From Candidatus Magasanikbacteria bacterium RIFOXYC2_FULL_42_28 (lineage in GTDB: Bacteria > Patescibacteriota > Patescibacteriia > Magasanikbacterales > GWA2-37-8): DNA of 35,848 bases. Of this stretch, positions 18,384 to 33,541 are shown in pieces. A program made the translations under genes and the position numbers. The notes beneath the pieces are model-generated. The model was not told the origin of the DNA. It made no database searches and was given only the letters and a program-made list of their open reading frames with translations. How positions within the stretch are numbered: the first letter of the stretch is position 1; the number at the start of each line of letters is the position of its first letter. The stretch is from the NCBI GenBank assembly GCA_001784435.1, contig MFQZ01000002.1, positions 76,502 to 112,349 on the forward strand, read 5' to 3'.

Positions 18384-18413
18384 ATTATACCATGATTTGA
18401 CAAGAAATTACAA
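18384..18413 (-). promoter_or_regulatory. Promoter of the EamA gene
   Basis: On the minus strand TTGTAA (18408-18413), an 18-base spacer and TATAAT (18384-18389). The -10 lies in the perfect palindrome GGTATAATTATACC (18378-18391). It overlaps the clpB promoter head to head. Confidence 0.5.
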
Positions 18414-18424
18414 TATGTTATACT
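18397..18424 (+). promoter_or_regulatory. Promoter of clpB
   Basis: A perfect TTGACA (18397-18402), a 16-base spacer and TATACT (18419-18424). The start would fall at about 18431, inside the CIRCE operator. It is the only good plus-strand promoter upstream of clpB, which implies a 450-base leader. Confidence 0.7.
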
Positions 18425-18425
18425 A

Positions 18426-18452
18426 TTATCACTCTACTGGTGAGAGTGATAA
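18426..18452. promoter_or_regulatory. CIRCE operator (HrcA binding site) for clpB
   Basis: TTATCACTC, nine bases, then GAGTGATAA: a perfect inverted repeat with the 9-9-9 spacing of CIRCE (consensus TTAGCACTC-N9-GAGTGCTAA). The only differences are a symmetrical pair of changes, G to T and C to A. It covers the expected start of transcription, where HrcA usually binds to block heat-shock genes. HrcA itself is not in the window. Confidence 0.88.
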
Positions 18453-18467
18453 GATTTAAAAATAGAA

Positions 18468-18501
18468 GCCCCCGGACATCGCATATTAGCGAGCCGGGGG
18501 C
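18468..18501 (-). terminator. Terminator at the left edge of the GC-rich block
   Basis: GCCCCCGG (18468-18475) pairs with CCGGGGGC (18494-18501), with CGC/GCG inside. Only the minus strand continues into a T-rich run (TTCTATTTTT), so it ends a minus-strand transcript just short of the CIRCE element. Confidence 0.65.
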
Positions 18502-18616
18502 AGACCTCCTTTTGATGCACCCTGAGGCGCATCGACAGCTTTGGCCACCGTGCGTCCGAGGACGTGGGGTGGCACGTTGAGGAAAACCCGATCTCAGTGA
18601 CCGAACAGCCGAAGGG

Positions 18617-18688
18617 TCACATGAGGAAGGGGAGAATCTTGGCCAAGAAGATCGTGGTCATCTTGAACCCGAAGATCAAGATCTGCAT
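18617..18688 (-). CDS. Small ORF for a 23-residue hydrophobic peptide
   Basis: The ORF runs from ATG to TGA and gives a peptide starting MQILIFGFKM and ending KILPFLM. It has two Lys and otherwise mostly Ile, Leu, Phe and Met, so it could span a membrane once. The support is translational: AAAGGAGG ends exactly five bases before the ATG, and SDs are almost absent elsewhere in this window. 22 of the 24 codons end in G or C, against the AT-ending bias of the surrounding genes. The wobble positions coincide with those of an opposite-strand ORF (18621-18707, 28 residues) that has a poorer SD, so composition alone does not choose the strand. It could be a membrane-active peptide or a leader peptide; no homologue is recognised. 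Confidence 0.5.
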   Translation of the reverse strand: MQILIFGFKMTTIFLAKILPFLM

Positions 18689-18693
18689 TTCGG

Positions 18694-18698
18694 CCTCC
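18694..18698 (-). promoter_or_regulatory. Consensus ribosome binding site of the small ORF
   Basis: GGAGG within AAAGGAGG (18694-18701), five bases before the ATG at 18688. Such a strong SD is exceptional here; era, pyrG, clpB, gltX, ddl and most other genes show none. Confidence 0.6.
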
Positions 18699-18716
18699 TT
18701 TCAATAATAAAATAAC

Positions 18717-18875
<159 letters not shown>

Positions 18876-21518
18876 ATGGCTCCTCAAAACTTCACCAACA
18901 AATCTCAAGAAATGATCCAGCGCGCGGCTGGGATTGCCGGCAAAAATAATTTTCCGCAGGTGGAACCGCCCCATCTTTTTTTCGCTTTTTTGGAAGACGA
19001 AGAAAATATTGTGGTTTCAATTTTGCGCAAACTTAATGTTAATTTAATTGCTTTGCGCGCCGATATCCAGTCCCTCATTGACAAACTCCCCCGCCCGTCC
19101 GGCCAAGTTCAGCAAGGCGGTGTTGGTCAAATTTTACTTGGGCCCGCGATGATGTATATTTTCCAAACGGCCGGCCAAGAAGCGCAAAAAATGAAAGACG
19201 AATATATCAGCGTGGAACATTTATTGCTCGCTTTTTTGGTTAGTAAAAATCCGGTGAGTGAACTGTTGGAAAAAAATGGAATTAGTTATGACAAAACATT
19301 ACAAGCGCTCGTAGCCGTGCGTGGTAATCAACGGGTGGACTCGCCCGAACCGGAAACTAAATACAATGCTTTAGAAAAATACGGAAAAAATTTAACTGAT
19401 CTCGCGCGCAAAGAAAAAATTGATCCGGTAATCGGACGCGATGATGAAATTCGGCGCGTGATGCAAATTTTATCGCGCCGAACAAAAAATAATCCGGTAT
19501 TAATCGGCGAACCGGGCACGGGCAAAACCGCCATTGCCGAAGGACTGGCGCAACGGATTGTTAATAACGATGTCCCCGACTCTCTGCGTGACAAAGAAAT
19601 TTTCGCGTTAGATATTGGCTCGCTTGTGGCCGGCACCAAATTCCGCGGTGAATTTGAAGAACGGTTAAAGGCGGTTTTAAAAGAAATCAACGCCTCGGCC
19701 GGAAAATATATTTTGTTTATTGACGAACTGCACACCATTGTTGGCGCGGGATCAAGTGAGGGTTCGGTGGACGCGGCCAATCTCTTGAAACCAATGCTCG
19801 CGCGCGGAGAATTACATTGTATTGGCGCGACCACTTTAAAAGAATATCAAAAATACGTGGAAAAAGACGCGGCTTTGGAACGCCGTTTCCAACCGGTAAT
19901 GGTAGCCGAGCCATCCGTGGACGATGCCATCGCGATTTTGCGCGGAATTAAAGAAAAATACGAAGTTCATCACGGTGTACGCATCACGGACGCGTCAATT
20001 TTGGCAGCGGTTAATTTATCTTCTCGCTATTTATCGGATCGATTTTTACCGGACAAAGCGATTGATTTAATGGACGAAGCGGCCTCGGCCTTACGACTGG
20101 AAATAAATTCTATGCCCGAGGATTTGGATAAAATGAAACGCGCGATGATAAAATTAGAAATTGAAAAACGCGCTTTGAAAAAAGAAAAAGACGAGGACTC
20201 GCGCGAACGGTTGAATAAATTAGAAAAAGAATTAGCGGAATTAAAAGCCAATAGCGCCGAATTGGAAGCCAAATGGCAAAATGAAAAAACCATCATCAGT
20301 AAAATTCACGAAAACAAACGTCAAATTGACCAATTGAAACAGCAGGCCGATATTGAGGAACGCAAAGGCGATTTACAAAAAGTGGCCGAGGTGCGTTATG
20401 GAAAAATTCCATTGCTGGAAGGTGAAATTCGCCAGGATGAAAAAAAATTAGCGGACTTGCAAAAAAGCCACGGGATTTTAAAAGAAGAAGTTACGGACGA
20501 AGACATCGCCGGCGTCGTCGCGCGCTGGACCGGAATTCCGATTGTGAAAATGTTACAAACCGAATCCGAACGCCTGATTAAAATGGAGGATGAATTAGGC
20601 AAACGCGTCATTGGCCAAAGTGAAGCCGTTAAAGCGGTATCCAACGCCATCCGCCGTTCACGCGCGGGCATTGCCGAACCCAATCGCCCCATTGGCTCCT
20701 TTATCTTTTTGGGCCCGACCGGTGTAGGCAAAACCGAACTCTCCAAAGCGCTCGCCGAATTTATGTTTGACTCCGCCGACGCTCTCGTGCGCGTGGATAT
20801 GAGTGAATATATGGAAAAGCACGCCACCAGCAAACTCGTCGGCTCCCCGCCCGGCTATGTGGGCTATGAAGAAGGCGGACAACTCACCGAAATCGTCCGC
20901 CGCCGACCGTATTGCGTAATATTATTGGACGAAGTGGAAAAAGCGCATCCGGATGTGTTTAATATCTTATTGCAAATTTTAGATGAAGGCCATGTTACCG
21001 ATGCCAAAGGCCGAACGGTAAATTTCAAAAACACGGTGATAATTATGACCTCCAACATCGGAAGCCAAATGATTTTGGACACCAACCGCAAAGGCGAATT
21101 TGGTTTTGAAGATTCTCACGGCAAACGCGGTAAAAAAACCGAAGATTCCGTGCGCGCCAAAATTATGGATTTGCTCAAAGATCATTTCCGCCCAGAATTT
21201 TTGAATCGCATTGATGAGACCATAATTTTTGAAGCATTAGGCGAAGAAGAAATTCAAAAAATTGTGGAATTGCAACTCACGGAATTAGCCAAACGATTAA
21301 CTGATAAAAAAATCACGCTAAAAATTGATCCGGCGGTGAAAAAATATCTGGCCAAGGAAGGATATAATCCGGATTATGGCGCGCGGCCGTTGAAGCGGAT
21401 AATTCAGACGGAGTTGTTGGATAAATTGGCGTTTGCGCTAATTACGGGGGATGTTGCGGAAGGACAGGTGGTGGAGATTGGGGTGGAGAAGGGTAAAATT
21501 ATATTGTCATCCAAATAA
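18876..21518 (+). CDS. clpB: ATP-dependent disaggregase ClpB
   Basis: This Hsp100 chaperone pulls proteins out of aggregates together with DnaK. The 880-residue protein is full length. An N-domain (1-150) is followed by AAA1, with Walker A GEPGTGKT (211-218), Walker B FIDE (281-284) and the pore-loop region [13 protein letters not shown]. The coiled-coil middle domain (about 412-535), which separates ClpB from ClpA/ClpC, is present. AAA2 begins near [10 protein letters not shown] and has Walker A GPTGVGKT (613-620), then [26 protein letters not shown]. The C-terminus ends in the D2 small domain. Expression is probably controlled by HrcA through the CIRCE site. No SD lies before the ATG. The final codons run into the first palindromic repeat. 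Confidence 0.97.
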
Positions 21519-32893: not shown

Positions 32894-33541
32894 CTACTCC
32901 TCCACCTCGCAGTAGCACCGTCCGAGCAAACAGACGGAGACGGGGTACTCTTCGTCTGCACAAACGCCAGCGCACTGCTCGACCGCAGTGCAAACCACGC
33001 AGTCACTCGCCTGCACATGATTGCACAGACCACCGCCACACCGGTCGATGGAACAGGCGTTGTCGTCTTCACAGAGCCAATACCCGTCCTCGTCGATCAC
33101 GCCGTCGCAGTTGTTGTCCACGCCGTCGCAGACTTCTTCCGCGTAGGGGTAGATGGTGGCATCGGCATCGTTGCAATCCACAGCATAAGGTTGATCACAT
33201 GCCCCACAGTCCTCGCCGAAGACACCGTCGTTGTCGTTGTCAACATAATAGTCGGGCGCGTCGCACATTGCGGGGTCTTCGTCTACGATGTTGTCACAGT
33301 TGTTATCCACCCCGTCGCAGACCTCGGTGGCACCGGGGTAGATTGTGAGGTCGGAGTCGTTGCAGTCCTCGCCCTTGATGCGAGGCCATTCACACCCCAC
33401 ACCGTCGGAGCAGAAGAATCCGTCGCCATCACTGTCCACACCGTTGTCGGTCGGGACCGTCACATCACCCGAAATGACGAACGGACACCCCGTAACACAT
33501 ACCGCGAGCACAGCCAAAGCCATCAAAAAGATTGGTCGCAT
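32894..33541 (-). CDS. MopE-like lipoprotein with Cys/Asp repeats, probably transferred
   Basis: The 215-residue protein starts at 33541, where GGAGG lies five bases before the ATG. The signal peptide RPIFLMALAVLAVCVTGC ends in a lipobox with the lipidated Cys. Two copies of the MopE repeat (about 50 residues apart) each contain DCNDxDxTIYPxAxEVCDGV and NNCDxxxDED, which bind calcium or copper in related proteins. A Cys-rich segment (ACSIDRCGGGLCNHVQ) ends it. Such repeats are typical of Myxococcota and related bacteria. The gene is far richer in GC than its neighbours, with codons ending mostly in G or C, and it has a real SD. It was probably acquired. Long frames on the other strand are by-products of the composition. 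Confidence 0.9.
   Translation of the reverse strand: MRPIFLMALAVLAVCVTGCPFVISGDVTVPTDNGVDSDGDGFFCSDGVGCEWPRIKGEDCNDSDLTIYPGATEVCDGVDNNCDNIVDEDPAMCDAPDYYVDNDNDGVFGEDCGACDQPYAVDCNDADATIYPYAEEVCDGVDNNCDGVIDEDGYWLCEDDNACSIDRCGGGLCNHVQASDCVVCTAVEQCAGVCADEEYPVSVCLLGRCYCEVEE

Follow-up and report, generated by a model that had tools for sequence, protein, structure and literature searches.

A GC-rich candidate micropeptide unit opposite the clpB leader in Magasanikbacteria

Between a heat-shock operator and the chaperone gene clpB, one Magasanikbacteria genome carries a GC-rich, strongly folding block of DNA (18465-18705), which raises the question of what this block is, which of its strands is used, and how it came to lie there. 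The window, the whole stretch of DNA analysed here, comprises 35,848 nt of contig MFQZ01000002.1 from Candidatus Magasanikbacteria bacterium RIFOXYC2_FULL_42_28, a member of a small genus of ultra-small bacteria. The genome is a 1.15-Mb draft assembly, of which 252 kb in total (the window and 217 kb elsewhere) was analysed. An earlier note on this DNA had described strong hairpins in the block, a 23-residue hydrophobic ORF behind a Shine-Dalgarno (SD) sequence at ideal spacing, and a terminator, the last two on the minus strand. It had read them as a self-contained transcript opposite the clpB leader, crossed by transcription from the HrcA-controlled promoter and laid out like a type I toxin-antitoxin system or a leader-peptide RNA, and had proposed a search of relatives and a covariation analysis of the hairpins on both strands.

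The gap between CIRCE and clpB

The clpB promoter, a near-consensus sigma-70 site (TTGACA-16-TATACT with an extended -10; 18397..18424, plus strand), adjoins a CIRCE operator, the HrcA site (TTATCACTC-N9-GAGTGATAA; 18426..18452, plus strand), an inverted repeat with a 9-nt spacer at the promoter. The same kind of site stands upstream of clpB in 26 relatives. In the closest relative examined, a sister species of the same genus (Candidatus Magasanikbacteria RIFOXYD2_FULL_41_14, contig MFRE01000001, G001), 73 of 75 positions around the promoter and CIRCE are identical. The clpB gene itself (18876..21518, plus strand) has no SD. CIRCE lies 17-67 nt from clpB in 20 of the 26 relatives with CIRCE and at most 210 nt away in the other six, as compared to 433 nt in the window and 648 nt in the sister species. 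Since most relatives have the short distance, the GC-rich block is best seen as an insertion.

An alignment of the gap between the two species reveals several inserted pieces, with the GC-rich unit present in both. A MITE-like CATTCCGAGCG repeat is found only in the sister species, and the clpB leader of the window holds a CTCCCTC...GAGGGAG repeat element (18774..18820), with more copies in the same genome (L067, L070). In another genus, g13 (G013; L029, L072-L079), an unrelated GC-rich repeat of 184 bp is located between CIRCE and clpB; this repeat has inverted ends GACTGTAGAAGAAT and at least 40 copies in its genome. The presence of these repeats and of the g13 repeat at the same place indicates that the gap tolerates insertions. 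The HrcA/CIRCE promoter does point through the block into clpB, as the earlier note had said, while the arrangement itself is limited to one genus and owes its origin to an insertion at a place where repeats also gather.

The block has a GC content of 0.568 against 0.410 for the whole window, a value reached by 586 of the 35,608 sliding 241-nt windows, and it is the only GC-rich non-coding stretch of the window. Either strand folds more strongly than all of its dinucleotide shuffles, with z = -3.8 (minus) and z = -5.3 (plus), and the minus strand carries three hairpins and a terminator.

The micro-ORF and its 3' region on the minus strand

The ORF was found on the minus strand at 18617..18688 as a micro-ORF of 23 codons (MQILIFGFKMTTIFLAKILPFLM; GC3 0.95) predicted to encode a short, hydrophobic and basic peptide. 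Its SD, AAAGGAGG (18694..18701, minus strand), lies 5 nt ahead of the start codon (AAAGGAGG-CCGAA-ATG). In the 252 kb analysed, it is the sole intergenic ORF of 15-45 codons behind AAGGAG, AGGAGG or GGAGGT. SD-like motifs precede merely 4 of 121 long ORFs of this genome, although the 3' end of its 16S rRNA retains the anti-SD TGGATCACCTCCTTT, which makes an SD-led micro-ORF exceptional here.

Behind the ORF, the minus strand encodes hairpin 1 (GTGACC...GGTCAC; 18597..18620), which overlaps the stop codon, hairpin 2 (GCCACC...GGTGGC; 18544..18573) and hairpin 3 (GATGCGCC-TCAG-GGTGCATC; 18514..18533), which in the window is fully paired on the minus strand only. These are followed by AAAGGAGGU (18504..18512), an SD-like sequence with no ORF behind it that is invariant in both species, and by an intrinsic terminator (18458..18501), in which a 34-nt hairpin, GCCCCCGGCTCGC-TAATAT-GCGATGTCCGGGGGC, precedes TTCTATTTTT. 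A simple scan did not list this site, but the hairpin with UUCUAUUUUU behind it, at -25 kcal/mol, substantiates the terminator that the earlier note had placed on this strand.

Among the genomes searched, just one further genome, that of the sister species, contains the whole block. Its minus strand encodes two SD-led hydrophobic ORFs, MSVLIFGFKMFLLVRELLM and MKRILRIIVTVSVVAFIHAPVAIIHPLFM (19 and 29 aa), each behind AAAGGAG, with a hairpin between ORF1 and ORF2. The first 10 codons of the window's micro-ORF match ORF1 and its last codons match ORF2, so that MQILIFGFKMTTIFLAKILPFLM looks like the start of ORF1 and the end of ORF2 joined in frame by a deletion. Both species share what lies 3' to the ORFs: hairpins 1, 2 and 3, AAAGGAGGU and the terminator, whose hairpin is identical in the two. 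What has persisted in the second species is, first and foremost, the terminator, together with the SD and both ends of the ORF.

Conservation is uneven along the unit. The terminator together with AAAGGAGGU is identical at 49 of 50 positions (98%), against a divergence of 28% at the four-fold sites of clpB, whereas the ORF region, the least conserved part of the unit, has 61% identity, large indels separate the two species in the coding part, and the substitutions near the ORF end are all amino-acid-changing and so give no sign of selection on the peptide sequence. The low identity of the ORF region places the constraint mainly on the 3' end, and what speaks for the peptide itself is the persistence of SD, start, stop and hydrophobic character.

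A rival reading is a decaying remnant, foreign GC-rich DNA in the gap whose terminator is kept merely to shield the clpB promoter and whose peptides no longer matter. The coding-part indels, the single fused ORF where the sister species has two, and the repeats that sit in the same gap in both species and in g13 are in line with decay. However, both species can still be read as SD plus ORF in spite of the indels, the frame is intact in the fused ORF and the hairpin pairs have been maintained, and we consider a remnant rather unlikely. The comparison supports a minus-strand micropeptide unit under selection.

Which strand works as RNA can be asked of the same hairpins. In hairpin 3, the second species has G-C in place of A-U and G-C in place of G.U, the latter site being A.C on the plus strand of the window; in hairpin 2, C-G has become U.G in the second species, a pair kept on the minus strand and broken (C.A) on the plus strand. 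At the changed sites of hairpins 2 and 3, the minus strand pairs in both species, while one species has a mismatch on the plus strand. The informative changes, few in number, preserve the minus-strand pairs; a single pair is altered on both sides, and the covariation is thin because the whole unit is known from two sequences only among those searched. Elsewhere in the order, a genome from a different family (L003, JACTTX010000043) has the terminator hairpin in sense orientation, following a gene that is GC-rich and cysteine-rich; there its outer G-C is replaced by a compensated A-U and its loop is shorter.

The opposite reading holds that the functional RNA is the plus strand, an extended and structured leader of clpB that might act as a thermosensor, and that the minus-strand ORF is incidental. 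The whole block folds slightly better as plus strand, which counts against a minus-strand explanation; the plus strand of the window also folds better at hairpin 2, and the clpB-proximal leader is 92.5% conserved between the two species. Set against this are the mismatches of the plus strand at the changed sites, the clpB leaders of 17-67 nt in most relatives, and the U-run of the terminator, which sits on the minus side; moreover, the block has no match above gathering score in Rfam 15, where no thermometer family reaches threshold. We regard a functional plus-strand RNA as highly improbable, and the minus strand appears the better supported of the two, on few events.

A promoter for the minus strand is less evident. 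A simple consensus scan found no good sigma-70 promoter for the minus strand of the block, and TATGTTATTTT (18709..18719, minus strand), common to both species and absent from the scan output, is a weak candidate for an extended -10. An (AAT)n tract (18718..18755), expanded in the window and short in the second species, occupies the place of the would-be minus-strand promoter, where spacing could vary with repeat number. Conservation, the pairs kept on the minus strand and the in-sense terminator elsewhere argue for a separate unit opposite the clpB leader; given the outcome of the scan, that its transcript is self-contained, as the earlier note had it, is something we can only infer.

Origin of the block and a proposed reading

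The ORFs of the unit have a GC3 of 0.72-0.96, compared with 0.47 for clpB and EF-Tu, and the EF-Tu value rules out codon optimisation as the reason for the high GC3. Other GC-rich, SD-led single genes of the same genome encode a lipoprotein with MopE repeats (32894-33541, described below), a zinc-ribbon-like protein (L071) and a SAM_HAT_C-like protein (L070), with further units at L067 and L069. As SDs are rare in this genome and yet lead several GC-rich small genes, the block looks like one of an acquired GC-rich set, and it is probably foreign in origin, judging from composition and translation signals.

Homologues of the block DNA in phages and plasmids amount to chance-level pieces only, and no donor was found in the phages, plasmids or viral contigs searched. 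A terminator pattern run over 84,980 genomes, and over viral contigs as well, returned nothing beyond the sister species and a single other genome of the Magasanikbacteria, both already known to carry the hairpin. Patterns for the ORF start and for hairpins 1 and 2 gave one match in viral contigs, inside an apparently ordinary CDS, and a covariance model of the 3' part of the block, run over the order's 86 genomes, gave one extra weak match on the strand opposite a gene for a ribosomal protein; both were taken as chance.

Several other GC-rich elements were noted. At 32894-33541 (minus strand) the window holds the lipoprotein gene with MopE metal-binding repeats; it is GC-rich (GC3 0.71), is led by an SD and looks acquired. 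L067:10060-10590 (minus strand) is a passenger-like GC-rich unit with inverted ends of about 28 bp (86%) that contains a broken ORF resembling a lipoprotein gene and a short ORF behind an SD. The sequence AGTTCCTTCNGTTCNTTCT occurs at L003:911-929 and L069:10840-10858, directly behind the stop codons of two unrelated GC-rich genes in different families.

A further 3' element, first met via the L070 unit, consists of GTGCGCC-NN-ACAC(T/G)TTC...-NN-GGC, a second hairpin and a terminator. It is found in six Magasanikbacteria genomes (G000, G001, G006, G010, G012, G013) behind different, mostly GC-rich single genes, with copies at L070:12677-12762 (plus strand), L093:1530-1616 and L098:356-454 (minus strand) and in L094, L095, L096/L088, L097, L099, L100, L101 and L102. 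In an alignment of ten copies, paired cells make up 92.7% and 7 of 11 pairs vary at both positions; covariation scores 0.451, compared with 0.152 for shuffles and no more than 0.129 for slid versions, the latter a control that favours the structure since it was drawn from those same sequences. The element has no Rfam match, is absent from viral contigs by two exact patterns, and may represent a novel RNA motif of 3' UTRs or a cassette-end site. The clpB block falls outside this group, scoring about 5 bits with model R2 as compared to 59-100 bits for complete members.

On balance, we think it more likely than not that a GC-rich micro-operon, probably foreign, entered the short CIRCE-clpB gap in reverse orientation in an ancestor of the genus. 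The comparison supports its reading from the minus strand, with a single small hydrophobic ORF behind an SD (a pair of such ORFs in the sister species), a 3' UTR of three hairpins and, at its end, the strongly conserved terminator just before the clpB promoter. Transcription would start from a weak promoter within the AT tract, around 18709-18750. The products might be small membrane peptides, with the hairpins shielding the 3' end and the terminator insulating the clpB promoter. Upon heat shock, release of HrcA would send the clpB transcript across the unit and silence the micro-operon by collision and antisense pairing, so that the peptide would mostly be made while clpB is repressed. The heat-shock antisense is predicted from the layout, and this coupling could be an incidental consequence of where the unit landed rather than a selected function.

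If expressed, the unit would be a rare SD-led micropeptide gene in an SD-poor genome and would illustrate how a stress promoter of the host can come to control, and silence, an acquired GC-rich unit. Beyond the block itself, Magasanikbacteria appear to hold a set of single-gene GC-rich units that were acquired, several with a common covarying 3' RNA element, and these could be studied as a group.

Comparison with known systems

Like the type I toxin-antitoxin loci Ibs/Sib, ZorO/OrzO and Fst/RNAII, the block has a small hydrophobic ORF with a strong SD, a structured mRNA and possible transcription of both strands. In such a module the hydrophobic peptide would be the toxin, and the heat-shock-driven clpB leader, which overlaps the opposite transcript fully, the antisense antitoxin. 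In those loci the antisense or divergent small RNA has its own promoter; here the opposite RNA would be a long, HrcA-controlled clpB leader, the arrangement is confined to one genus, and the simple consensus scan found no plus promoter except those of clpB upstream and no good plus terminator. The antisense would also rise in heat, the opposite of most stress-freed toxins. The peptide, poorly conserved in sequence, has no match above cut-off in Pfam, NCBIfam or PADLOC, toxin families included. The type I reading proposed earlier is thus not upheld, and we find such a module highly improbable. Equally doubtful is its more specific form, in which the micropeptide operon would be on under HrcA repression and shut off by the clpB heat-shock transcript, so that the leader of a chaperone mRNA would serve as RNA antitoxin to a toxin-like peptide. 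In the open papers found on clpB, heat shock and antisense RNA together with type I toxin-antitoxin systems, no such arrangement appears in titles or abstracts.

Leader-peptide attenuators of the trp and ermC types share with the block an SD-led short ORF, hairpins and a terminator, here in the order expected ahead of a minus-strand gene, an EamA transporter in the window. In contrast to such attenuators, the block has no conserved regulated gene behind its terminator: in the sister species a different gene comes next (dehydrogenase-like, and only then EamA), the next gene lies beyond the terminator, and a MITE and the divergent clpB promoter intervene. In single-sequence folds only the terminator form was seen, and no alternative antiterminator. 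We regard the leader-peptide reading as extremely unlikely.

With respect to HrcA/CIRCE control of clpB, the operator and promoter of the window are ordinary and found across the order, while 430-650 nt of DNA are inserted between operator and gene here as compared to the usual arrangement. Acquired single-gene GC-rich cassettes, such as integron-like or transposon passengers, differ in that the single-copy block has neither an attC nor an integrase shown for it and no terminal inverted repeats were found, and they resemble it in having a GC3-rich ORF with its own SD, its own 3' hairpins and terminator, and in being scattered singly.
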